The notes under the pieces were generated by a model that made no database searches, was not told where the DNA came from, and saw only the letters and a list, made by a program, of their open reading frames with translations. Below are positions 3,399 through 54,548 of a stretch of 60,819 nt of DNA, one piece after another. A program made the position numbers and the translations under genes. Within the stretch, counting starts at the first letter, position 1. Every line of letters begins with the position of its first letter. The stretch is from Acidobacteriota bacterium (lineage in GTDB: Bacteria; Acidobacteriota; Vicinamibacteria; Fen-336): positions 1 through 60,819 of the forward strand of contig QHVM01000058.1 of assembly GCA_003223555.1 (NCBI GenBank). Reading direction: 5' to 3'.

Positions 3399-4667
3399 GT
3401 GGCCGAGCCGCCTCCCCCGACGGCCATCGACGTCGCGGGCCTGGTCCGCCAGATCCCCACCCACTATCCCTTCGTGCTCGTGGACCGGGTGCTGGAGCAC
3501 GACCCCCGGGGACGGCTGGTGGCGATCAAGAACGTCACCGGGTCCGAGGAGTTCTTCGAGGGCCATTTCCCCGGCGCGCCGGTCATGCCCGGGGTGCTGC
3601 TCATGGAGAGCCTGGCCCAGGCGGCCGGGATCTGGCTGCTCCAGGACGCCGCCGACCCGCGGCGGCTCGAGGTCCACGTGGTCGGCATCGACCAGGCGAA
3701 GTTCCGCCGGCCCGCCCTGCCGGGCGACCAGCTCCGCCTGGAGATCACGGTGCTCAAGCGGCGGGGACCGCTCTGCCGCGTGCGGGGCGAGGTGCGCTCG
3801 GGGGAGAACCGGGTCGCGGAGGCCAACCTGCTCCTGCGGGTGGCGGCGCTGGAGCCGCCCGGCGTCGATCCCACGGCCCGGGTCGCCCGCGAGGCGGTGC
3901 TGGGAGCCGGGGTGGAGATCGGCCCCTACTCCGTGGTGGGCCCCCAGGTGCGGATCGGAGCCCGCACCGTGCTCGCCTCCCACGTCGTCGTCGACGGCGA
4001 CACCGAGGTGGGCCGCGACAACCGCCTCTACCCGTTCTGCTCGGTCGGGCTGGCGCCCCAGGACAAGAAGTACCAGGGCGAGCACACGCGTCTCGTCATC
4101 GGGGACCGCAACGTCGTCCGGGAGTGCGTCACCATCCAGCCCGGCACCGCGGGCGGGGGCGGGTTGACCCGCATCGGCTCCGACAACCTCTTCATGGCCT
4201 ACGCGCACGTGGCCCACGACTGCCTGGTGGGCGACCACACGATATTCGCCAACGGGGCCACGCTGGCCGGCCACGTGGAGGTGGCCGACTGGGTGACGAT
4301 CGGCGCCTATTCCGGCGTGCACCAGTTCTGCCGGGTCGGCACCCACGCCTTCGTGGGCGGCTACACGGTGGCCACCAAGGACGTGCTGCCCTATTCGAAG
4401 ACCGTCGGCAACCGGGCCTGCATCTACGGCGTGAACACCATCGGCCTCACCCGCCGCGGGTTTCCCGCCGAGACGATCGCGGCCATCCGCCGGGCCTTCC
4501 GCGTCCTGCTGCAGAGCCGGCTCAACACCAGCGAGGCCGTGGCGCGGCTGGAGGCGGAAGGCTCGCCCCACGCCGAGGTGCGGCGCATCGTGGAGTTCAT
4601 CCGCAGCGCGCGCCGGGGCGTGATCCTCAAGCGCCACAGCCGCCACCGGATGACCGAAGACTCGTGA
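3399..4667 (+). CDS. FabZ-LpxA fusion: 3-hydroxyacyl-ACP dehydratase / UDP-GlcNAc acyltransferase
   Basis: This is one 422-residue protein with two enzymes. Residues 8-145 are a FabZ hot-dog domain with GHFPGAPVMPGVLLMES, giving catalytic His56 and Glu70; FabZ dehydrates 3-hydroxyacyl-ACP in fatty-acid synthesis. Residues about 152-415 are LpxA, a hexapeptide-repeat left-handed beta helix that puts 3-hydroxyacyl onto UDP-GlcNAc in the first lipid A step. His270 and His273 (AHVAHDC) match the E. coli His122/His125 pair. The two activities compete for 3-hydroxyacyl-ACP, so fusion may channel or balance it. The frame is continuous and both halves look intact. The usual lpxD between ompH and fabZ is absent. 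GTG 3399 abuts the upstream stop, and the 3' end overlaps lpxI by 4 bp. Confidence 0.92.
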   Translation: MAEPPPPTAIDVAGLVRQIPTHYPFVLVDRVLEHDPRGRLVAIKNVTGSEEFFEGHFPGAPVMPGVLLMESLAQAAGIWLLQDAADPRRLEVHVVGIDQAKFRRPALPGDQLRLEITVLKRRGPLCRVRGEVRSGENRVAEANLLLRVAALEPPGVDPTARVAREAVLGAGVEIGPYSVVGPQVRIGARTVLASHVVVDGDTEVGRDNRLYPFCSVGLAPQDKKYQGEHTRLVIGDRNVVRECVTIQPGTAGGGGLTRIGSDNLFMAYAHVAHDCLVGDHTIFANGATLAGHVEVADWVTIGAYSGVHQFCRVGTHAFVGGYTVATKDVLPYSKTVGNRACIYGVNTIGLTRRGFPAETIAAIRRAFRVLLQSRLNTSEAVARLEAEGSPHAEVRRIVEFIRSARRGVILKRHSRHRMTEDS

Positions 4668-5416
4668 GCCATCCGCTGGGGCTGATCGCGGGCAACGGGC
4701 GCTTCCCGTTCCTGGTCGCCGAGGCCGCCCGCCGGTCGGGACGGCGGGTGGTCGCGGTGGCGGTGGAGGAAGAGGCGGCCCCGGAGCTGGCGGCCAGCGT
4801 CGACGAGATCCACTGGGTGGGCCTCGGCCAGCTCGGCCGGTGCATCGAGGTCCTCAAGTCCGCTGGCGTGAGCGAGGCGGTCATGGCCGGGCAGGTCCAG
4901 CACCGGCGGATCTTCTCGGGCATCGTCCCCGACCTGAAGCTGGCCGGCGTCCTCCTCCGGCTGGCCGTGAAGAACACGGACAGCCTCATCGGCGGGGTCG
5001 CGGACGCGCTGGGGAGGGAAGGGATCCGGCTGCTTCCCTCCACCACGCTCCTCGCGGACCAGATGGCGAGCGCGGGGGCGATGAGCCGGCGGCGCCCCAC
5101 CGCCGCGGAGCGCCAGGACATCGCCTACGGCGTTAAGGTGGCGCGGGCCCTGGCCGCGCTCGACCTCGGCCAGACCGTCGTCATCAAGGACCGGGCCGCC
5201 GTCGCGCTCGAGGCGATGGAGGGGACCGACGAAGTGATCCGCCGGGCCGGCCGGCTGGCCGGCCCGGGCACGACGGTCGTGAAGCTGGCCAAGCCGCGCC
5301 AGGACATGCGGTTCGACGTGCCGGTCGTGGGGGCCCGCACGGTCGTCCTGGCCGCGGCCGACGAGGCGGGCGTGGCGGTATGGGGGCTCGATCCCGGCGA
5401 CGGTGAGGGCGGGTGA
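4664..5416 (+). CDS. lpxI: UDP-2,3-diacylglucosamine pyrophosphatase LpxI
   Basis: LpxI (DUF1009) hydrolyses UDP-2,3-diacylglucosamine to lipid X in lipid A synthesis and replaces LpxH in many bacteria. The 250-residue product shows the N-terminal LGLIAGNGRFPFLVAEAA motif, the central NTDSLIGGVADALGREGI segment, and the C-terminal domain ending in RQDMRFDVPVVGARTV, which holds conserved catalytic-region residues. GTG 4664 overlaps the stop of fabZ-lpxA (GTGA), and its own stop overlaps the GTG of the next oxidoreductase. Length and motif order are normal. lpxB and lpxK are not in the window. Confidence 0.9.
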   Translation: MSHPLGLIAGNGRFPFLVAEAARRSGRRVVAVAVEEEAAPELAASVDEIHWVGLGQLGRCIEVLKSAGVSEAVMAGQVQHRRIFSGIVPDLKLAGVLLRLAVKNTDSLIGGVADALGREGIRLLPSTTLLADQMASAGAMSRRRPTAAERQDIAYGVKVARALAALDLGQTVVIKDRAAVALEAMEGTDEVIRRAGRLAGPGTTVVKLAKPRQDMRFDVPVVGARTVVLAAADEAGVAVWGLDPGDGEGG

Positions 5417-6293
5417 CCGTCCGGGTGGGCGTCGTGGGCGTGGGCGCCCTCGGCCAGCACCACGCCCGGGTCTATGCGCAGTTGCCCGGGGCCCGCCTGG
5501 CCGGAGTCTACGACGTGGATCCCTCACGGGCCGCCGAGGTCGCCACCCGCCACGGCATCCCGGCCTTCGCCCGCCTCCGGGAACTGATCGGCGAGGCGGA
5601 CGCCATCTCAGTGGCGGTCCCGACCGTGGACCACCACCGGGTGGCCCGGGAGCTCCTGGAGGCCGGAAAGGACGTCCTCGTCGAGAAGCCCATGACCGCC
5701 CGCCTCGACGAAGCCGAGGACCTCGTCCGGCTGGCGGCGGAGAGGGGGGCGCTCCTCCAGGTCGGACACATCGAGCGGTTCAACCCGGCCGTGGACATCC
5801 TCCGCAAGGCCACGTCGGAACCGCGGTTCATCGAGGTCCATCGGCTCAGTCCCTTTTCCGCCCGGACGACATCGTCCTCTGCCTGGATGACTCGCCGGCC
5901 GTGCAGGTCGACGCGGTGGGTGTCCCTGTCCTGACCCCGAAGGTCGACATCGCCAACGTGCGGCTCCGTCTTGCATCGGGTCTCATCGCCAACCTTACCG
6001 CGAGCCGCGTCTCGGTCGAGAAGGTACGCAAATTTCGGGTATTTTCCCCGAAGTCTTATATATCCGTGGATTTCGCGGCTCGATCCGCCCAGGTCTGTCG
6101 TCTTATCGAGGGGGCGGACGGTCCCGAGATCGCCGTCGAGCGGACGGCCGCCCCCAACGAGGAGCCGCTCCGGAGGCAGCTCGCGGCCTTCATCGCTGCC
6201 GTCCGCGATCGCTCGGCGCCGCTTGTCACCGGCTCCGACGGCCTTCGCGCGCTGGCGCTCGCTCATTCGGTCCTGGCGCGGATGGCGGAGTAG
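5413..6293 (+). pseudogene. Gfo/Idh/MocA oxidoreductase, interrupted by a frameshift (GnnA-like candidate)
   Basis: The first part (5413 to about 5860) is an intact Rossmann half: VRVGVVGVGALGQHHARVYA, the EKP motif (VEKPMTARLDEA) and GHIERFNPAV. The second half continues in another frame from about 5862 (DDIVLCLDDSPAVQVDAVGV) to the stop at 6293. Roughly 12-15 residues that normally carry the conserved LDLMIHD-type motif are missing, with a net shift of one base, so the break looks like a deletion of about 40 bp. In Acidithiobacillus and Leptospira a Gfo/Idh enzyme, GnnA, beside lpxA makes the 3-keto sugar for amide-linked lipid A; position next to lpxA-lpxI makes that the best guess, but no GnnB aminotransferase is adjacent. 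It may be a sequence error rather than a dead gene. Confidence 0.8.
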
Positions 6294-23834: not shown

Positions 23835-24009
23835 GGGAGTGAATCCCGCTCCGGTCCTCTTTGAGCTGGGGGGTGCTAGCCGCGCACCCCCCAGACCCCC
23901 CGCTCGCTCCGCGGGAGTGAATCCCGCTCCGGTCCTCTTTGAGCTGGGGGGTGCTAGCGGCGCACCCCCCAGACCCCCCGCTCGCTCCGCGGGAGTGAAT
24001 CCCGCTCCG
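23835..24009. repeat. 78-bp tandem repeat (2.2 copies) of the REP-like element
   Basis: Units begin at 23835, 23913 and 23991 (exact 78-bp period); the third is partial. The two full copies differ at one visible base (CTAGCC versus CTAGCG). Each unit has the small palindrome GCGGGAGTGAATCCCGC and a second hairpin GGGGGGTGC...GCACCCCCC. Related single copies lie at 23727 and, inverted, at 40484-40566; partial ones near 39468 and 42059. Confidence 0.85.
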
Positions 24010-24112: not shown

Positions 24113-24886
24113 TCACCTCTCCGGGGCGCCCGCCCGCAGGCGGAGGGAGATCCAGATCGTGCGGTGGGCGGCGGTCACGAACGTCGTCACCGCCATCAGG
24201 CCGAGCATCCACTCGGCCGGAGTGCCGACCGGCCGGCCCAGCCGAGCGCTGAGCGCAGGGTCGACCAGGCACACCAGGCACGTGATCACGAGCCGCTCGC
24301 CCCGCTGCATCAAGCCGCCCGAGCACGTGACGTTCAGGGCCTCGCCCCGCGCCCTCGTGTAGCTCACGAGGAGCGAGCCGCCCATCGCCGCCGCGGCCAG
24401 GAAGGCGCCCGCCTCGCGGTCGCGGAAGAAGACCACGAAGCCCAGGAACGCGAACACCTCCACGAAGCGGTCGAACGTGCTGTCGACGAAGTCGCCGTAG
24501 GCGGAGGCCACGCCCGTCAGCCGGGCGATGCGGCCGTCCAGGATGTCGCAAACGCCTCCCAGCGCGATCGCCCAGCCGCCGAGCGGCAGATCTCCCCGCG
24601 CGATGAAGACGCCGCTCACGACGCCCAGGACGAGGCCGGCGAAGTTGTAGAAGTCCGGAGTCAGCCCCAGCCGGAGGGAGAATCCCACCAGCGGGTCGAT
24701 CGCCCACAGGAACCAGTGGAGCAGGAAGTCGCCGAAGCCGAGGAAGAACTGCGCGCCCTTGCCCGTGGCGTCGGCGTCCGGCCGCCGGCTGCTCAGGGCG
24801 TAAACGCCCATGGAGACGAGCGCGGCCGCGACGACCGTACCCAGGACGATCAGGCTGGATGCCGTCTCAGGCGGTGACGGGACCAT
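24113..24886 (-). CDS. CDP-alcohol phosphatidyltransferase, PI-phosphate-synthase-like
   Basis: These enzymes join a polar alcohol to CDP-diacylglycerol to make a phospholipid. The 257-residue multi-pass membrane protein has the full catalytic motif D-x2-DG-x2-AR-x8-G-x3-D-x3-D at residues 114-139 (DILDGRIARLTGVASAYGDF, then VDSTFD). The later SYTRARGEALN...GGLMQRGERLV pattern resembles the region that binds the phosphorylated polyol in actinobacterial PIP synthase and archaeal inositol-lipid synthases. PgsA-type glycerophosphate transfer is the alternative. It overlaps the upstream oxidoreductase-flippase gene by 20 bp, so it is the last gene of a three-gene minus-strand operon with an aminotransferase. 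Confidence 0.85.
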   Translation of the reverse strand: MVPSPPETASSLIVLGTVVAAALVSMGVYALSSRRPDADATGKGAQFFLGFGDFLLHWFLWAIDPLVGFSLRLGLTPDFYNFAGLVLGVVSGVFIARGDLPLGGWAIALGGVCDILDGRIARLTGVASAYGDFVDSTFDRFVEVFAFLGFVVFFRDREAGAFLAAAAMGGSLLVSYTRARGEALNVTCSGGLMQRGERLVITCLVCLVDPALSARLGRPVGTPAEWMLGLMAVTTFVTAAHRTIWISLRLRAGAPER

Positions 24887-26924
24887 CGGCCGCGCGGCCG
24901 GCGAACAGGATCCCGAGGATGCCGATGGGGACCATCTGCAGGACGTGATAGATGAGGCCGAAGGCCAGCGCCTGCTCCTTGGCGACCCCGAAGCCCACGA
25001 GCGCGAGGGTGGCGCCCACCTCGAGCGTGCCGAGGTTGCCGGGGGGAGCGAAGGGGAAGGCGAGGGCGAGGTTCACGGCCAGCAGCACGAGGAAGGCCGC
25101 CGAGAGAGGCAGGTGGAGGCCGACGGCCCTCATGGCGATTGCGGTGACGTTGACCTCGAGGGCCCAGGAGACGAGCGAAGCGCCGAGCGACAGCCCGAGG
25201 GCGCTCGGCCGGTTGGCCGCGGCCAGCCCCTGCCGCGCGCTGGCCAGGAAGGCCCCCACGCCCTTGACCGGCAGCGAGGCCGGGGGCGGGCCGGCGTCGA
25301 GGGGCCACAGCGCGTACACGAGCATCGCGCCCACCGTGAAGAGGGCCAGGGCGAAGGCGGCGCCGGGACGGATCCAGAGGGGGACGTGGGCGACGAAGGG
25401 CAAGAGGGCGAGGCCGAGCAGCAGGCCCGTGGCGTTGACGAGATGGTCGAGCACGATCGAGCTGAAGATGGACGCCGGGGGAAGCCCGGTCCGGCGGCCG
25501 AGGAAGTTCATGCGCGCCAGCTCGCCCGCCCGGGCCGGGACGACCGTCGATACCGCGAAGCCGACCACCAGCGACTTGAAGGCCTGGGCGAGCGTCGCCA
25601 GCGGCGACAGCGGCCGGACGAGGGCCAGCCAGCGCACGGCCTGGAAGCCGACGGCAGCCAGGTTGACCGCGGCGGCGAGCGCGATCCATCCCGGATGGGC
25701 GGCCATCAGCGCGCTGCCGAGGTGCGCCCACCCCATGTCGTGGAAGGTCCACGCCCCGGCGCCCAGCAGGGCCGCGGCGACCCCCGCGCGGAGGACCCGC
25801 ACGCGCCGGCGCCGCTCCACCGCGGCCCGGCTGTCCGCGCGCTCGCCGTCGGGTCCCGCGCCCAGCGAGGCCACCAGCGCCTCCGCGGGCGCTTCCAGCT
25901 CCTCGGCGGGGGAGGAGATGAAGGGCAGGGTCCGGCCTTCGAGAGACGACTCGTAGGCCCGGGAGATGAGCCGGGTGACGTAGACGGCCTCGTCGAGGGG
26001 GGCGGGGTCGAGGTCCTGGCGGCGCACCCGCTCGGTGAACCTCAGGAAGAGGGGCGAGTACCACTCGGAGTGGCTGGAGTTCCGGCTCATCCCGTCCGCG
26101 AAGCGGATCTCCTGAGAGGTGTCGGCGTGGATCCGCACCGACTCGTCGTCGCCCACGAGCTCGCCGCGCTCTCCCACGAAGCGAAACCGGATCTGCCGGC
26201 GGCGGGCGGCCCAGGTCAGCCTCACCTGGGCCAGGCACGCGCCGAAGTCGAGGACGACGAGCGCGGTGTCTTCGACGCGGTAGTTGTGCTGGAGCGTCCG
26301 CACGGTCGCCTGCACCGTCCGGGGATCCCCGAGCACCGAGCGGAGCTGATAGAAGATGTGGGCCCCGTGGTCGACGAGGATCCCGCCCCCGGCGAAGGCG
26401 CGGTCGGTGCGCCAGGCCGGCGACCAGTGGGGGTTTCCCTCGTTGGCCTCGGTGCGGTGGACCTCGTATTCGGCCAGGTAGATCCGCCCGAGGCCGAGGA
26501 GCAGCCGCTTGACCGCCTGCCACTGGGGCGAGAAGTGATACTGGTGGCAGGCCTCGAACACGATGGCGGACCGCCGGACTGCCTCCGAGATGCTCTCCGC
26601 GTCGGGCAGGCCCGGCGCCAGCGGCTTCTCGCAGATCACGTGCACGCCCCGCCGGGCGGCTTCTTCGACCAGGCCGCGATGGCTGAACGGCGGCGTGCAG
26701 ACGTCGCAGAAATCCAGCGCCTCCCGCTCCAGCGCCTCTTCGGCGCGGGCGTAGGCCGCCGCTCCCGGGAAGAAGGCTCGCGCCGCTTCGAGGTTGGACG
26801 GCGACAGGTCGGTCACGGCGACGATGTCCACCGCCTCCCGCAAGACGGGGTCCTCCGCCCACTGCGGGGCATGTCCCCGCAGGGCGATGTTGCCGGCGCC
26901 GAGGAGGGCCCCCCGCAGCCTCAC
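24867..26924 (-). CDS. Fusion: Gfo/Idh/MocA oxidoreductase + flippase-like (LPG-synthase TM/UPF0104) membrane domain
   Basis: The 685-residue protein starts at GTG 26924, overlapping the aminotransferase stop. Residues 1-330 are an NAD(P)-dependent sugar or cyclitol dehydrogenase of the Gfo/Idh type: Rossmann GALLGAGNIALRGHAPQW, the EKP motif (ICEKPLAP, 98-105), CHQYHFSP and GGGILVDHGAHIFY. From about residue 375 to 680 it is a multi-pass domain with the hallmark VVPARAGELARMNFLGR and PPGNLGTLEVGATLALVGFG, as in the MprF flippase part and UPF0104 proteins. The reading frame is continuous across the junction with no internal start resembling a gene boundary. The pairing suggests oxidation of a lipid-linked or lipid-bound head group coupled to transbilayer movement. 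Substrate unknown. Confidence 0.88.
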   Translation of the reverse strand: MRLRGALLGAGNIALRGHAPQWAEDPVLREAVDIVAVTDLSPSNLEAARAFFPGAAAYARAEEALEREALDFCDVCTPPFSHRGLVEEAARRGVHVICEKPLAPGLPDAESISEAVRRSAIVFEACHQYHFSPQWQAVKRLLLGLGRIYLAEYEVHRTEANEGNPHWSPAWRTDRAFAGGGILVDHGAHIFYQLRSVLGDPRTVQATVRTLQHNYRVEDTALVVLDFGACLAQVRLTWAARRRQIRFRFVGERGELVGDDESVRIHADTSQEIRFADGMSRNSSHSEWYSPLFLRFTERVRRQDLDPAPLDEAVYVTRLISRAYESSLEGRTLPFISSPAEELEAPAEALVASLGAGPDGERADSRAAVERRRRVRVLRAGVAAALLGAGAWTFHDMGWAHLGSALMAAHPGWIALAAAVNLAAVGFQAVRWLALVRPLSPLATLAQAFKSLVVGFAVSTVVPARAGELARMNFLGRRTGLPPASIFSSIVLDHLVNATGLLLGLALLPFVAHVPLWIRPGAAFALALFTVGAMLVYALWPLDAGPPPASLPVKGVGAFLASARQGLAAANRPSALGLSLGASLVSWALEVNVTAIAMRAVGLHLPLSAAFLVLLAVNLALAFPFAPPGNLGTLEVGATLALVGFGVAKEQALAFGLIYHVLQMVPIGILGILFAGRAADGPVTA

Positions 26925-28261
26925 CGCCAGCCGCCTTCGCGGGCGACGAGGCCGAGGACCTCGTCGAGGATGCCGAGCGCCGATTCCGCCGTCTCGCGGT
27001 CGATCGAGAGGGCGGGGTTCACGCGGAAGTGCGGGTTGTAGATCATGCTGATGAGCCCGCGCCTCAGGCACTCCTGGAAGATGCGGACGCAGACCTTCTT
27101 GTCGAGCGGCTCCTTGCTCTGGCGGTCCTTCACCAGCTCGACGCGGACGAGCAGCCCCTTGCCGTCCACGTGCCCGATGAGCTCGTGGCGCTCCTGCATC
27201 TCGCGCAGCCGGCCGAGCATCCATTCGCCGACGCGGGCGGCGTTGTCGACGAGATGCTCTTCCTCGATGACGCTCACCGACGCGTAGGCAGCGGCGCCGG
27301 CCAGGGGGTTGCCGCCGTAGCTGGAGCTGGAGCCGGACGGGTTGCCCCACGGCGCGGCCCGGGTGATCACGTCGGTGGAGACGAGGCCGGAGACGGGAAA
27401 GCCCGCGCCGACCCCCTTGCCGATGGTCATCACGTCGGGCCGCACGCCGGAGTGCTCGCAGCCGAACCAGCGCCCCGTCCGGCCGAACCCCGTGATCATC
27501 TCGTCGCTGATGAGCAGGGCCTCGTTCTCGCGGGCGATGTCGCGGATCGCGGGCAGGAACTCCGGCGGGGGGACGATGTTGCCGGCGGTGCCCTGGACCG
27601 GCTCCACGAGGATGGCGGCCAGGGCCCCGGTCGTGGAGCGCTTCACCACCTGACGGGCGAACTGCGCGCACTCGACGCCGCAGGAGGGGTAGGTGAGCTT
27701 CAGCGGACAACGGTAGCAATCAGCGTAGGGGGTGTGATAGGTCCCGGGGAGCGAGGGCCCGAAGCCGACCTTCGTCTCGTCCCCGATGAGGGACAGGGTC
27801 CCCGCCGTCTTTCCGTGGAACCCACCCCAGAAGGACAGGAACTCGTACTTCTTCGTGTACGACTTGGCCAGGCGCATGGCGGCCTCGACCGCCTCCGCTC
27901 CGCTGGAATAGAGCTGGACCTTGCCCAGCCCTTCCGGCGCATGGGCGGCGATCTTCGAGAGCGCGCGCGCCCGGCGCTCGGTGGTGAAGGAGCCGACCGT
28001 CACCTCGTCGATCTGGTCCTTCAGGATCTGGCGATAGCGGGGATGGGAGTGACCCAGGGCGTTGACGCAGATGCCGGCCGCCAGGTCCAGGTAGCGGTTC
28101 CCGTCGAGGTCCTCGACGACCGAGCCCTCGGCCCGCGCCACCGCCAGGCCGGACAGGCTGGCGATCGACTGGATGCCCGGCGCGAGACTGCGGCTCTCCT
28201 CGGCCACCAGGGCGCGGCTCCGGGGCCCCGGCACCTCCGTGACGATTCTCGGTCCTTTCAG
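26921..28261 (-). CDS. Class III PLP-dependent aminotransferase
   Basis: The protein is a fold-type I aminotransferase of the GABA/ornithine group: YLDLAAGICVNALGHSHPRY, SFWGGFHGKTAGTLSLIG, AILVEPVQGTAGNIVPPPEF, the PLP-Asp motif LLISDEMITGFGRTGRWF and the Schiff-base Lys in MTIGKGVGAGFPVSG. Product range for the subgroup is broad (omega-amino acids, amino sugars, cyclitols). The first standard start is GTG 28234, but in-frame sequence KGPRIVTEVPGPRSRALV begins upstream as in family members. CTG 28261 sits there with GAGG six bases before it, so I place the start at CTG. It overlaps the oxidoreductase-flippase gene by 4 bp and heads that operon. Confidence 0.88.
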   Translation of the reverse strand: MKGPRIVTEVPGPRSRALVAEESRSLAPGIQSIASLSGLAVARAEGSVVEDLDGNRYLDLAAGICVNALGHSHPRYRQILKDQIDEVTVGSFTTERRARALSKIAAHAPEGLGKVQLYSSGAEAVEAAMRLAKSYTKKYEFLSFWGGFHGKTAGTLSLIGDETKVGFGPSLPGTYHTPYADCYRCPLKLTYPSCGVECAQFARQVVKRSTTGALAAILVEPVQGTAGNIVPPPEFLPAIRDIARENEALLISDEMITGFGRTGRWFGCEHSGVRPDVMTIGKGVGAGFPVSGLVSTDVITRAAPWGNPSGSSSSYGGNPLAGAAAYASVSVIEEEHLVDNAARVGEWMLGRLREMQERHELIGHVDGKGLLVRVELVKDRQSKEPLDKKVCVRIFQECLRRGLISMIYNPHFRVNPALSIDRETAESALGILDEVLGLVAREGGWR

Positions 28262-28315
28262 CGACGACCTCGCCTTCCCTGCCGCCTCCGTGGGCGGACG
28301 GCTCGACAGACGGGC

Positions 28316-28321
28316 ATTATA
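28316..28321 (-). promoter_or_regulatory. Possible -10 box for the aminotransferase operon
   Basis: TATAAT reads perfectly on the minus strand, about 50 bp upstream of the aminotransferase start, in the divergent gap 28262-28423. No good -35 lies 16-18 bp away, so an activator may be needed. Confidence 0.4.
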
Positions 28322-28423
28322 GGCGAGGTCGCGCCTTCCCCCGCGCGGCCACGACGCGCCTCAGCAAGGACCGGGCATCCACGGCGGGATCACATCCGGG
28401 AGGGTGGGCCCGGCGGGCGGTCG

Positions 28424-29560
28424 CTGCGCATCGCGATCGTCGTTCCCTACGACGTCGACCGCGAGGGCGGCGTCAAGCGCCACGCGGTCCACCTCGCCCG
28501 GACGCTCCGCGGCGGGGGAGACGAGGTGACGCTGGTGGGCCCCTCGAGCGGCGGGCAGCCCGGGCCGGGGGTCCGCGGCTTCGGCGGCGTCGTCAACGTC
28601 CCCGCCAACGGGGCCGCCAACTACCTCGGCCTCTTCACGTCTCCCCTCGCCGTGCGCCGCTTCTTCCGGGCGGCCGCCTTCGATGTGGTCCACGTCCACG
28701 AACCGCTCGTGCCGATGCTGCCTCATTACGCGCTGTGGTTCTCTCCCCGCGCGGCCCACGTCTGTACCTTCCACATGTACACGGAAGACGAGCCGGCCGC
28801 CTGGCGGGCGGTCCGGACGACGCTGGGCCGGCTACTTTTGCCCCGGTTCGAGCGCGGCATCGCCGTCTCTCGTCCCGCCGCCGCTTATGCCGCGGCGACC
28901 TGGCGGGGGCCGCTGTCCGTGATCCCCAACGGCGTACCGACCGGAACGTTCCGGCCGCCGGAGGATGGCGAGGAAGACGGTTCCGGGCGTCCCTTGCGGG
29001 TGCTGTTCGTCGGGAACTGGCGCGACCCGCGCAAGGGTCTGCCCTACCTGCTCGAAGCCCACTCCCGGCTCCGCGCGAAAGGGCTCGCCGTGGAGGTGGA
29101 CGTGGTGGGGGAGGGACCGTCGCCGGTCCCGGAGCAGCCCGGGGTCAGCTTCCATGGCGCGATCGCCTCCGAAGCGGCGCTGGCCGAGCGCTACCGCCAC
29201 TGCGACCTGTTCGTGGCGCCGGCCACGGGCCAGGAATCCTTCGGCATCGTGCTGCTCGAAGCCATGGCCAGCGGCCGGCCGGTCGTGTGCTCCGACATCG
29301 CCGGCTACCGCGAGGTCGCCGACCGCGAAGGCGCCCGCCTCGTGCCGCCGGGCGATGCGGAGGCGCTGGCCGGCGCCATCGCCGCGCTGGCCGGCCAGCC
29401 GGAGCGCCGCCGGCGGATGGGAGCGGCGAACCGCCGGCGCGCCGAGGCCTACGACTGGGCGAGCCTCGTCAGCCGGGTCCGCGATGAGTACGTGGCCGCC
29501 GTCGCTGCGCGCGCGGGAGCGGCGCCCGCCGCGCTGGGCCGCTCGATCGCGGCCGGCTGA
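28424..29560 (+). CDS. GT4 glycosyltransferase, PimA-like
   Basis: The protein resembles phosphatidylinositol mannosyltransferase PimA along its length: LRIAIVVPYDVDREGGVKRH at the start (PimA-type glycine loop), DVVHVHEPLVPMLPHYAL, VIPNGVPTGTF, GNWRDPRKGLPYLLEA and the E-x7-E donor motif GQESFGIVLLEAMASG. PimA glycosylates a phospholipid head group at the inner membrane. No ATG/GTG/TTG occurs near the conserved beginning; CTG 28424 sits exactly where PimA has its initiator methionine, and the frame is open far upstream. It is divergent from the phospholipid operon and its stop overlaps the next gene (TGATG). GT4 substrate cannot be fixed from sequence. Confidence 0.85.
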   Translation: MRIAIVVPYDVDREGGVKRHAVHLARTLRGGGDEVTLVGPSSGGQPGPGVRGFGGVVNVPANGAANYLGLFTSPLAVRRFFRAAAFDVVHVHEPLVPMLPHYALWFSPRAAHVCTFHMYTEDEPAAWRAVRTTLGRLLLPRFERGIAVSRPAAAYAAATWRGPLSVIPNGVPTGTFRPPEDGEEDGSGRPLRVLFVGNWRDPRKGLPYLLEAHSRLRAKGLAVEVDVVGEGPSPVPEQPGVSFHGAIASEAALAERYRHCDLFVAPATGQESFGIVLLEAMASGRPVVCSDIAGYREVADREGARLVPPGDAEALAGAIAALAGQPERRRRMGAANRRRAEAYDWASLVSRVRDEYVAAVAARAGAAPAALGRSIAAG

Positions 29561-30615
29561 TGGAGGCCCGTACGGTCATCGCCGGGCTGGCCCTCTTCCT
29601 GGCCTGCTTCCCCAGGCTCGCCGCCGATGCCTCCCTCGCCGACGGCGAGTCGGGCGTGCTCGTCCGGGACCCGGTCGCGTTCCTGCGCGCCGAGATCGGC
29701 CTCACCGCCACGGAGCTGGGGACCCTCGAGCGCGGCGGGGACGTGGCCAGGGTGATCGACACCGGCGACCGGCGGGAGGTCCTCTCCTTCGCGGTCATGC
29801 GGGTGCGGACGACGCCGGCCCGGGTGCTGGAGCGCCTGCGCGACCTCGAGGGGCGCCGGCAGGCGCCGTGGGTCCTGCAGATCGGCCGCCTCGGTCCGGC
29901 GCCCTCCGCGCCGGACTTCGAGGCGCTGACCCTGGACCAGGGCGACGTCAAGCACCTCGCCAAGTGCCAGGTCAACGACTGTGACATGCGGCTGCCCGCC
30001 GACGCCATCGAGCGCTTCCGCACGCAGGTCGACTGGTCCTCCGCGTACCGGACGGGACGCGCGAACAAGCTCTTCCGGGACATGCTCCAGTCCGGCACGG
30101 CGGCCTACCTGAAGCAGGGCAACCCGGCCCTCTTCGAATACGTCAACAACAACGACCCGGTCCGGATCGCGGACAGCCTCGAGGAGCTGCTCCGCCGGTC
30201 GCGGTTCCTGTACGACGCGGCTCCGGATCTCTTCACCTTCCTGCAGAGGTTCCCGGAAGCGCGGCCCGCCGACGCCGAGGACTTCGTCTACTGGATCAAG
30301 GAGAGGTTCTGGCTGCTGAACGTCCTGAGCGTGAACCACGTCGTCCTCGTCAACCGCGCCACCCCGTCGGGCTGGCTCGTCCTGGCCGTCTCCAAGCAGC
30401 TCTATGCGAACCACTACTACGAGTCGTCGCTGGGAGTGACGGCGTTCGTGGGGGGCAAGGAGTCCGGCTCGTATCTCGTCTTCATCAACCGGACGCGGGC
30501 CGACATCCGCCGCAGTGGCTTCACCTGGCCGGAGCGCACGCTGCTCAAGTACCTCGTGCGGGGCCGGCTCGAGGGACAGCTCAAGTACCTGCGGCCCCAG
30601 CTCGAGTCGCCCTGA
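29560..30615 (+). CDS. Conserved-looking exported protein of unknown function
   Basis: The 351-residue protein has an N-terminal signal peptide (ARTVIAGLALFLACFPRLAA) and no later membrane helix. A Cys pair lies in KCQVNDCDMRLPADAIERF, then VDWSSAYRTGRANKLFRDML and NHVVLVNRATPSGWLVLAVS. I do not recognise a characterised family; the pattern of a periplasmic lipid- or START-like fold is only an impression. ATG 29560 overlaps the glycosyltransferase stop, which ties it to that operon. Confidence 0.75.
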   Translation: MEARTVIAGLALFLACFPRLAADASLADGESGVLVRDPVAFLRAEIGLTATELGTLERGGDVARVIDTGDRREVLSFAVMRVRTTPARVLERLRDLEGRRQAPWVLQIGRLGPAPSAPDFEALTLDQGDVKHLAKCQVNDCDMRLPADAIERFRTQVDWSSAYRTGRANKLFRDMLQSGTAAYLKQGNPALFEYVNNNDPVRIADSLEELLRRSRFLYDAAPDLFTFLQRFPEARPADAEDFVYWIKERFWLLNVLSVNHVVLVNRATPSGWLVLAVSKQLYANHYYESSLGVTAFVGGKESGSYLVFINRTRADIRRSGFTWPERTLLKYLVRGRLEGQLKYLRPQLESP

Positions 30616-52155: not shown

Positions 52156-54309
52156 ATGGTGCGGGTCGCGTTCCTCTGGCACATGCACCAGCCCCCGTAC
52201 CGCGATCCGCTCGACGGCTCGGTGGTCCTGCCCTGGGTGCGCCTGCACGCCCTCAAGGACTACCTCGGGATGCTGCGGGTGCTGGAGGAGACGCACGAGG
52301 TCCACGCCACGTTCAACCTCGTCCCGGTGCTGCTCGACCAGCTCGAGGCCTGCGCGCGGGGCGAGGCCGACGATCCCCACCAGCGCGCCTCGATGGTCCC
52401 CGCCGCCGACATGGACGAGGCGCAGCGGCTCTCCGCGCTCAAGTGGCTCTTCATGGCCCAGGAGCAGAACGTCCTCGGCCGCCACCCGCGCTTCAAGGAG
52501 CTGCTCGGCCAGCGGGGGCCGCGCCGGGACGAGGGCGGGCTGCGGGCGGCGGCTCCCCATTTCTCGACCCAGGACATGCTCGACTTGCAGGTCCTGGGCA
52601 AGCTCGCCTGGTTCGACCTGGAGTGGCAGGAGAAGGACCCCGTCGTGCGCGGACTGGCCGAGAAGCAGCGCGGCTTCACCGAGGCCGACAAGGCCGCCTT
52701 GGCCGAGCGGGAGAGAGCGCTGCTCGGCGAGATCCTTCCCGCCTACCGCCGCGCCGGGGAAGGCGGGCAGGTCGAGCTGTCCGCCTCGCCCTACTACCAT
52801 CCCATCCTGCCGCTCCTGTGCGACACCGACGCCCACCGCGAGGCCCATCCCGAGGCGTCCGTCCCCCGCCGGTTCCGCCATCCGGAGGACGCCCTCGACC
52901 AGGTCCAGCGCGCGCTGGCCCGCCACGCCGCGGTCTTCGGCCGGCCGCCCTCCGGGATGTGGCCCTCGGAAGGCTCAGTATCGGACGAGGCCGTGCTGCA
53001 GATGGCCCGGACCGGGCTGCGCTGGACGGCGTCGGACGAGGCCGTGCTCGAGCGCAGCCTGGGCGGCACCCTGCAGCGCGACCCGGGCGGGATCGCCCAG
53101 CCGGTCGACCTGCTGTACCGGCCGTGGATGCGGGACACCGAAGCGGGCCCGATCGCGCTGCTCTTCCGCGACCACGTGCTCTCCGACCTCATCGGGTTCA
53201 CCTACTCGCGCCAGGCGCCCGAGCCGGCCGCGGCGGACTTCCTGCAGCGCCTGCGGAAGGTGGGGGAGTCGTGGCGGGGGACGGGGCTGGCCGGCGAGCC
53301 GGTGGTGGGCGTCTTCCTCGACGGCGAGAACGCCTGGGAGCACTACCGCGACGGCGGGCGCGTGTTCCTCCGCGCCGTCTACCAGGGCATCGCGCGCGAC
53401 CGCCACCTGAAGGGCGTGAGCGTGAGCGAGGCCCTCGAGGGCCAGGCGCCGCGGGCGCTCCCGCGCGTGTTCGCCGGGAGCTGGATCCACGCCGACTTCT
53501 CGGTCTGGATCGGCCACGCCGACGACCGCCGGGCGTGGGACCTGCTCGGCGACGCCCGCGACGCGCTGGCCGCCCACGAGGCCTCCGGGCCGCCCGAGAA
53601 GGGCGAGAAGGCCTGGGAGTCGTACCGCGCGGCGTGCGCGAGCGACTGGTGCTGGTGGTACGGCGACGACCGGCACTCGGAGAACGACTACGAGTTCGAT
53701 CGCCTGTTCCGCCGCCACCTGCAGGCCGTGTACCTGGGCCTCGGCCTCCCGGTGCCGGACGCGCTCCTGGAGACGGTCATCACCACCCGCCATCTCGAGG
53801 CCGCCGCCCGGCCCCCGCGCGGGCCGCTGAGCCCCTCGATCGACGGCGCGGTGAGCGATGGAGAGTGGGACCCGGCCGGCATCCACCACGCGCCGCGCGC
53901 GGGGTCGATGGGCCGGTCCGGCCACGGCGTCGAGACGATCCGGTTCGGCCTCGGCGAGGGTACGCTGTACCTTCTCGTCGAGACCTCCACTCCCGCCCAG
54001 ACGCTGCTGGCCGAGATGGAGGTCGTCGTGACCTTCGGCACGGCCGTGCGGTACCGGCTGGGAGCGGCGGGGGGCACGCTCGCCGTCCACCGTGAGCGGC
54101 GCAACGGCGACGGCTGGACGGCCTTGCCGTCGGAGACGAAGGCGGCCGCGGGCGCGGTGCTGGAGGTGGGCATTCCGGTCGCCGAGATCCCCGGCCGGGA
54201 ACGGGGCCGGCTGGAGTTCCGCGTCCTGCTGCGCCAGGGCGAGACCGAGCTGGAGCGGCACCCCGAGGTGGCGCCCTTGAGGATTCCCCTCGAGGAGAAG
54301 AAGCGATGA
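52156..54309 (+). CDS. Glycoside hydrolase family 57 protein
   Basis: GH57 enzymes act on alpha-glucans (amylase, amylopullulanase, branching enzyme types). The 717-residue protein starts [20 protein letters not shown] with the family HQPP motif, has [13 protein letters not shown], the nucleophile region [14 protein letters not shown] (catalytic Glu near residue 276) and [20 protein letters not shown] with a later acidic motif. About 150 C-terminal residues are beta-rich. It lies 37 bp from the divergent lptF and overlaps the next small gene. A role in glycogen turnover is inferred. Confidence 0.88.
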
Positions 54310-54548
54310 GCGGCATCGACCCCGAGCGCTATGTCGAGCAGTACTGGAAGCGCTTCCCCGGCACCTACTTCACCGGTGACGGCGCGCGCCAGGACAAGGA
54401 CGGCTACTTCTGGATCATGGGCCGCGTGGACGACGCCATCAACGTGGCCGGGCCCCGCCTGGGGACGATGGAGGTGGAGAGCGCGCTCGTCTCCCATCCC
54501 CAGGTGGCCGAGGACTACTCGGTCCTGGCCCGCGAGGAAGAAGAGTAG
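54306..54548 (+). CDS. 80-residue fragment of acetyl-CoA synthetase (hinge/A8-type region only)
   Basis: The whole product matches an internal piece of acetyl-CoA synthetase: [20 protein letters not shown], then [18 protein letters not shown] and [19 protein letters not shown]. The family motif INVSGHRLGT reads [10 protein letters not shown] here, and the last 11 residues are unrelated. The adenylation core and C-terminal catalytic lysine domain are absent, so it cannot be an active synthetase. ATG 54306 overlaps the GH57 stop (ATGA) and thrB follows by 1 bp, so it is translated in the operon. It may be a deletion scar or a small regulator; I cannot tell. Confidence 0.7.

Follow-up and report, generated by a model that had tools for sequence, protein, structure and literature searches.

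A candidate inositol-phospholipid modification locus with a conserved aminotransferase-dehydrogenase pair in an Acidobacteriota genome

The balance of evidence tips slightly towards a compact gene block in an Acidobacteriota genome being a dedicated inositol-phospholipid modification pathway, which would yield an inosamine-type phospholipid, possibly glycosylated, that is then flipped. The evidence is genomic, comprising gene content, protein families, retained catalytic residues, gene linkage in other genomes and an inositol-phosphate synthase (MIPS), and from it we infer the substrate, product and flipping direction of the pathway. At this genomic level, the results support an earlier sequence-only reading of the same DNA, which had proposed a phospholipid with an oxidised, aminated and possibly glycosylated head group that is flipped.

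The window analysed here is the whole 60,819-nucleotide stretch of contig QHVM01000058.1, which is contig C84 of the genome (G000; 5.39 Mb, 98% complete). The nearest relatives with a name are the MAG 'Acidobacteria bacterium AA35' and, from a sister family, 'Vicinamibacteria bacterium SSF20'. A minus-strand operon runs from 28234 to 24113 and encodes, in order, a class III PLP aminotransferase (AT; 26921..28234), a Gfo/Idh/MocA dehydrogenase (GFO) fused to an LPG_synthase_TM (MprF-type flippase-like, LPTI) domain (24867..26924), and a PIPS-type CDP-alcohol phosphatidyltransferase (PT, type A; 24113..24886), with overlaps of 4 nt between GFO and AT and 20 nt between PT and GFO. Divergent from it, on the plus strand, is a PimA-like GT4 glycosyltransferase (about 28424..29560; PF13439/PF13692), the start codon of which is uncertain; its homologue in locus L073 starts at a position matching CTG 28424 of the window. 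Coordinates and Pfam domains thus confirmed the overlapping operon and divergent GT4 that had been described from sequence alone. A conserved plus-strand protein follows the GT4 (29560..30615), for which Pfam and NCBIfam profile searches returned no match. Its homologue adjoins the block in G001 and G010, and it may be an accessory part.

Several other features of the window were recorded. Tandem units of ~78 bases (GGAGTGAATCCCGCTCC...) occupy 23836-24000, between ETF genes and the operon, and, with both strands counted, the window has four copies of the 18-base core of this unit. A single open frame at 3399-4667 appears to be a fusion in which a FabZ-like domain precedes an LpxA-like one, and is followed by an LpxI-like gene (4664-5416; all named by eye). 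After the latter, a Gfo/Idh-type gene is split across two reading frames (5413-6293), reflecting either an assembly frameshift or a broken gene. A short open frame at 54306-54548 looks by eye like part of an acyl-CoA or acetyl-CoA ligase and is probably a remnant.

The PT (PF01066 and PIPS/AIPS-type NCBIfam models) is of the PIP synthase (PIPS) type, and is predicted from its sequence and modelled structure to transfer inositol phosphate to CDP-diacylglycerol. Its best PDB sequence matches are the PIPS of Mycobacterium and Renibacterium, and a Foldseek comparison of the predicted structure (mean pLDDT 86) placed PIPS in all of the top 14 positions (best E 1.5e-7), with PGP synthase (PgsA-type) at E 0.01. 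The motif Dx2DGx2AR...Gx3Dx3D retains all four Asp, and G118, A121, R122 and G131 are conserved. The inositol-phosphate pocket of Mycobacterium tuberculosis PgsA1 comprises R94, S132, K135, R137, R152 and R155 (PMC6506517), for which the equivalents here are R/S/R/R/R/R, forming a positively charged pocket. The genome encodes four further CDP-alcohol transferases (L001-L004), which lack these pocket residues. By sequence, fold and pocket, the PT thus does not cluster with PgsA, in keeping with its earlier description as PIP-synthase-like. Scores against NCBIfam models fell short of equivalog level, at 122 bits (cut-off 180) for the best model, archaetidylinositol-phosphate synthase (NF040950), and 95 bits (cut-off 170) for PIP synthase (NF045883). 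A PgsA or PssA identity was ruled out by the pocket residues, the PT tree and the Foldseek ranking.

In the PT tree, the AT-linked (type-A) PTs of the window's lineage form one clade (support 98/97), the nearest kin of which are PTs within an SPT-type sphingolipid-like cluster. In G000 this cluster lies on contig C138 (L038:4376-10561) and holds an alpha-oxoamine synthase (SPT-like), an SDR, DAGK-like and PlsC-like proteins and a PIPS-type PT. By eye it is likely a sphingolipid cluster, and it is conserved across the order, often including the PlsC-like member. A further PIPS-like protein is encoded on contig C17. That the genome has a third, AT-linked copy besides this C17-type enzyme and the sphingolipid-cluster paralogue suggests that this copy serves a distinct product. 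MIPS in G003 adjoins a PIPS-like protein with 37% identity to the window PT.

The dehydrogenase carries PF01408, PF02894/PF22725 and PF03706 (149 bits) within one open frame, and the same fusion is common to G001, G005 and L073, which bears out the earlier claim of a Gfo/Idh-flippase-like fusion. The catalytic-type K100 of GFO is present in 68/68 aligned rows, and D185 and H189 in all 66 ungapped rows. GFO scored 53.5 bits against the inositol 2-dehydrogenase (IolG) equivalog (cut-off 355), and is hence no more than a distant relative of known inositol dehydrogenases. The flippase-type PF03706 domain is shared with MprF, the lysyl-phosphatidylglycerol (PG) synthase/flippase, but the lysyl-transferase domain of MprF is replaced here by a dehydrogenase. 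Pfam and NCBIfam searches found no aminoacyl-PG synthase domain in the fusion protein (NF033480, 17.6 versus 600 bits), ruling out MprF membership. An AlphaFold model of the fusion built with four sequences was set aside (mean pLDDT 45.6).

The class III assignment of the AT also stood, with 322 bits for PF00202 and K273 and R404 invariant across 81 aligned sequences. Its nearest solved relatives in the PDB are GABA aminotransferases and racemases. Its score for 4-aminobutyrate aminotransferase (TIGR00700) was 284 bits, under the cut-off of 507, and it fell under the cut-offs of all NCBIfam models listed. Where GABA aminotransferase 3oks has the Arg of an HGR motif, the AT has Lys142, and so lacks the GABA-type Arg; this Lys is present in 81/81 sequences, an invariance that is partly selected because the scan pattern contained it. 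Four cysteines (C173, C176, C185 and C189) are likewise kept in 81/81 aligned sequences, with three missing in L068 and L069, and are possibly a metal site.

The block was found again, whole or partial on short contigs, in six other genomes. AT, GFO, LPTI and PT occur together in G001, G005 and L073, and pieces lie on short contigs in G002 and G010. In G014, from another family, AT, GFO and PT are together and the opposite strand carries LPTI as a gene of its own; this LPTI is only 30% identical, and therefore may be a different partner from the fused domain. The genes of the block are thus linked in relatives, apart from GT4 near the G005 block. GFO homologues (E < 1e-30) occur in 8/193 genomes of the class. 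The most distant of these (G051 and G056) keep the AT-GFO pair, in clusters with CDP-alcohol PTs, an NTP transferase and, as named by eye, an alpha-oxoamine synthase and an acyl-CoA ligase.

Beyond the class, a scan with the AT alignment yielded 80 loci, the neighbours of which were counted by tblastn. Their labels include Acidobacteria, Rokubacteria, Deltaproteobacteria, Myxococcales, Binataceae, Bdellovibrionales, Planctomycetota and Nitrospirae, among others. A same-strand GFO lies ≤4.5 kb from AT in 66/80 loci, and the AT and GFO identity matrices are strongly correlated (Mantel r 0.81, shuffled maximum 0.11), to which shared genome descent contributes. An inositol-lipid-type gene (PIPS-like or DIPPS-like PT, MIPS, or inositol-phosphoceramide-synthase-like) is nearby in 63 loci; contig ends probably account for some of the 17 without one. 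PIPS-like PTs were counted in 20 loci, inositol-phosphoceramide-synthase-like proteins in 16 and HpnL-like LPTIs in 28. No hopanoid genes, considered since the LPTI is HpnL-like, were noticed among the translations of related loci viewed.

Two layouts recur among these loci. In Myxococcota, Bdellovibrionota and the window's lineage, AT-GFO is found with a PIPS-like PT and, outside the window's lineage, usually also with a phosphoinositol-dihydroceramide-synthase-like protein (NF052609, 165 bits, cut-off 480); the two co-occur in 15 loci. The second layout (Rokubacteria, Desulfobacterota and others) begins with a HAD phosphatase and an NTP transferase. Next come an ATP-grasp-like protein that is unclassified, AT, GFO and a DIPPS-like CDP-alcohol transferase, in many cases with an HpnL-like LPTI as well. 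The DIPPS-like PT, NTP transferase and ATP-grasp-like protein (by eye) suggest that the product may differ in some loci. The ATP-grasp-like protein, directly before AT (e.g., L079:9144-9983, without a match in Pfam or NCBIfam searches), has homologues in 51/80 loci and could attach an amino acid to the amine.

The earlier observation that no inositol-phosphate synthase was visible holds for the window but not for the genome, which encodes one MIPS on another contig (G000:C5:25278-25616; PF01658, 118.8 bits). Because of this gene, the head-group alcohol, previously left unknown, is most likely inositol, as is also supported by the MIPS inside many related loci, the PIPS pocket and the PimA-like GT4. 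MIPS was found in 17/80 AT loci, against about 0.26 expected by chance placement; binomial statistics for this linkage take no account of kinship among the genomes and are indicative. One of these is an inositol-3-phosphate synthase (TIGR03450, 380 bits), and the others were called by similarity to it or to the G000 MIPS. MIPS is also encoded in 23/26 genomes (25 relatives plus G000), including 19/19 good-quality ones. Among 195 Myxococcota genomes, 19 carry the AT subfamily, and 18 of these 19 encode MIPS, versus 111/176 of the others (Fisher p 0.003), with MIPS ≤10 kb from AT in four genomes. Since genomes of these groups commonly encode MIPS whether or not they carry AT, the presence of MIPS in a genome is by itself weak evidence.

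The closest solved relative of the GT4 is PimA (152.7 bits over the full length, residues 1-358), followed by MshA (59.9 bits), which upholds the earlier designation of a divergent PimA-like enzyme; the N-terminal half diverges in part. If it works as PimA does, its donor would be GDP-mannose and its acceptor phosphatidylinositol (PI). The GT4 is linked to the block in G001, G010 and L073, and a search near the block in G005 did not find it. It lies beside the AT-GFO pair in two of the 80 AT-related loci, its linkage being confined to the window's lineage. An SGNH-hydrolase-like gene (by eye) lies beside GT4 at L073:9168-9668, L040:5115-5615 and L046:3026-3526; in L040 and L073 it separates GT4 from AT, a position in which the window has no such gene.

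In the proposed pathway, MIPS, encoded elsewhere in the genome, would supply inositol phosphate. The Gfo/Idh domain would oxidise a single ring hydroxyl of inositol, and the class III aminotransferase would aminate the resulting ketone, giving an inosamine (amino-inositol). The PIPS-type PT would join inositol phosphate or inosamine phosphate to CDP-diacylglycerol or a similar activated lipid, and oxidation and amination could take place before or after this transfer. That GFO is fused to a membrane domain argues for the lipid as its substrate, and the presence of a PT copy specific to the locus argues for modification of soluble inositol phosphate ahead of the transfer. The fused flippase-like domain would then carry the product to the outer leaflet, and in the window's lineage a sugar may be attached by the PimA-like enzyme. 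Two points count against this scheme: the inosose aminotransferases known so far belong to the DegT type rather than to class III, and GFO is a distant relative of the known inositol dehydrogenases.

Other explanations account for parts of the same evidence. GFO and AT could make an amino sugar, with GT4 adding this amino sugar to ordinary phosphatidylinositol in which the inositol is left unmodified. Gfo/Idh and aminotransferase pairs make amino sugars elsewhere (GnnA/GnnB, NtdC/NtdA), GT4 is PimA-like and adjacent, and an NTP transferase and a HAD phosphatase are encoded in part of the related loci. We nonetheless consider this explanation unlikely, given that the sugar aminotransferases known from such pairs belong to the DegT type, that GT4 accompanies so few of the loci and is absent near the G005 block, and that inositol-type genes accompany most of them. 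The wider conservation of the AT-GFO pair relative to GT4, together with the two other PIPS-like enzymes that the genome encodes, also makes it very improbable that PT, the flippase-like domain and GT4 produce a plain mannosylated PI (PIM-like), with GFO and AT being minor or unrelated to the head group, even though PIPS and PimA-like genes are present here and PIPS and PimA form the start of the mycobacterial PIM pathway.

Alternatively, AT and GFO may be a separate metabolic pair, of amino acid, GABA or sugar metabolism, that happens to adjoin inositol-lipid genes. The AT falls under all listed NCBIfam cut-offs and therefore has no assigned substrate, which together with its GABA aminotransferase and racemase relatives suits such a role. 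The genes overlap, however, GFO is fused to a membrane flippase-like domain, and linkage to MIPS and PIPS-like genes recurs in distant phyla, so we regard a separate pair as quite unlikely. We regard as decidedly unlikely an open-chain amino-polyol phospholipid, for which class III aminotransferases provide some grounds, as they often take terminal aldehydes and the PDB relatives of the AT fit the fold common for such substrates. However, some class III enzymes, BioA among them, act on ketones as well, and the PIPS-type pocket, MIPS and inositol-phosphoceramide-synthase-like genes indicate inositol. Lipids of the open-chain kind do exist, in the form of aminopentanetetrol phospholipids (PMC6423904).

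If the inosamine-phospholipid reading is true, many soil and sediment bacteria would have a zwitterionic or cationic inositol lipid, which, differing from PI by only 0.984 Da, routine lipidomics could overlook. The AT-GFO pair would gain a function and the lipid a gene marker. In outer-membrane bacteria, inositol lipids would also become connected with flipping and the control of charge, functions already known from lysyl-PG and MprF. The broader proposition, that the conserved AT-GFO pair marks an undescribed bacterial class of inosamine phospholipids, and possibly also sphingolipids, across several phyla (Acidobacteriota, Myxococcota, Bdellovibrionota, Rokubacteria, Desulfobacterota and others), is more tentative, and we place it somewhat short of probable. 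Descriptions of inosamine or aminoinositol lipids were not found among open-access papers, to which the search was confined.

Compared with known systems, the locus proposes the same types of reaction, oxidation followed by amination, as aminocyclitol antibiotic pathways, but those pathways have no lipid transferase or flippase, and their aminotransferases are of the DegT type. Aminopentanetetrol phospholipids share an amino-polyol head group with the proposed product, but theirs is an open-chain polyol. Relative to the mycobacterial enzymes, the window PT resembles PgsA1 in fold and pocket, yet scores under the PIPS equivalog cut-off, and the GT4 matches PimA over its full length; here, however, the host is LPS-bearing, and genes for amination and flipping adjoin. 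The closest known system is the inositol lipid pathway of Bacteroides thetaiotaomicron, with MIPS (BT_1526), PIPS (BT_1523), PIP phosphatase (BT_1525) and PI-dihydroceramide synthase (BT_1522) (PMC9246714). Like G000, it combines a genome-encoded MIPS with a PIPS-type transferase, and genes similar to its PI-dihydroceramide synthase occur in AT-related loci, with a PAP2_3 protein in G000. Relative to it, the locus here adds the AT-GFO pair and a flippase-like fusion, and the word "aminotransferase" does not appear in the main text of that paper (PMC9246714). Ceramide phosphoinositol has also been reported in Myxococcus xanthus (PMC9246714). The earlier suggestion that such a lipid would be unusual in an LPS-bearing bacterium hence does not hold, as inositol lipids are known in both Bacteroides and Myxococcus (PMC9246714); the unusual part is the amination, not the inositol lipid.
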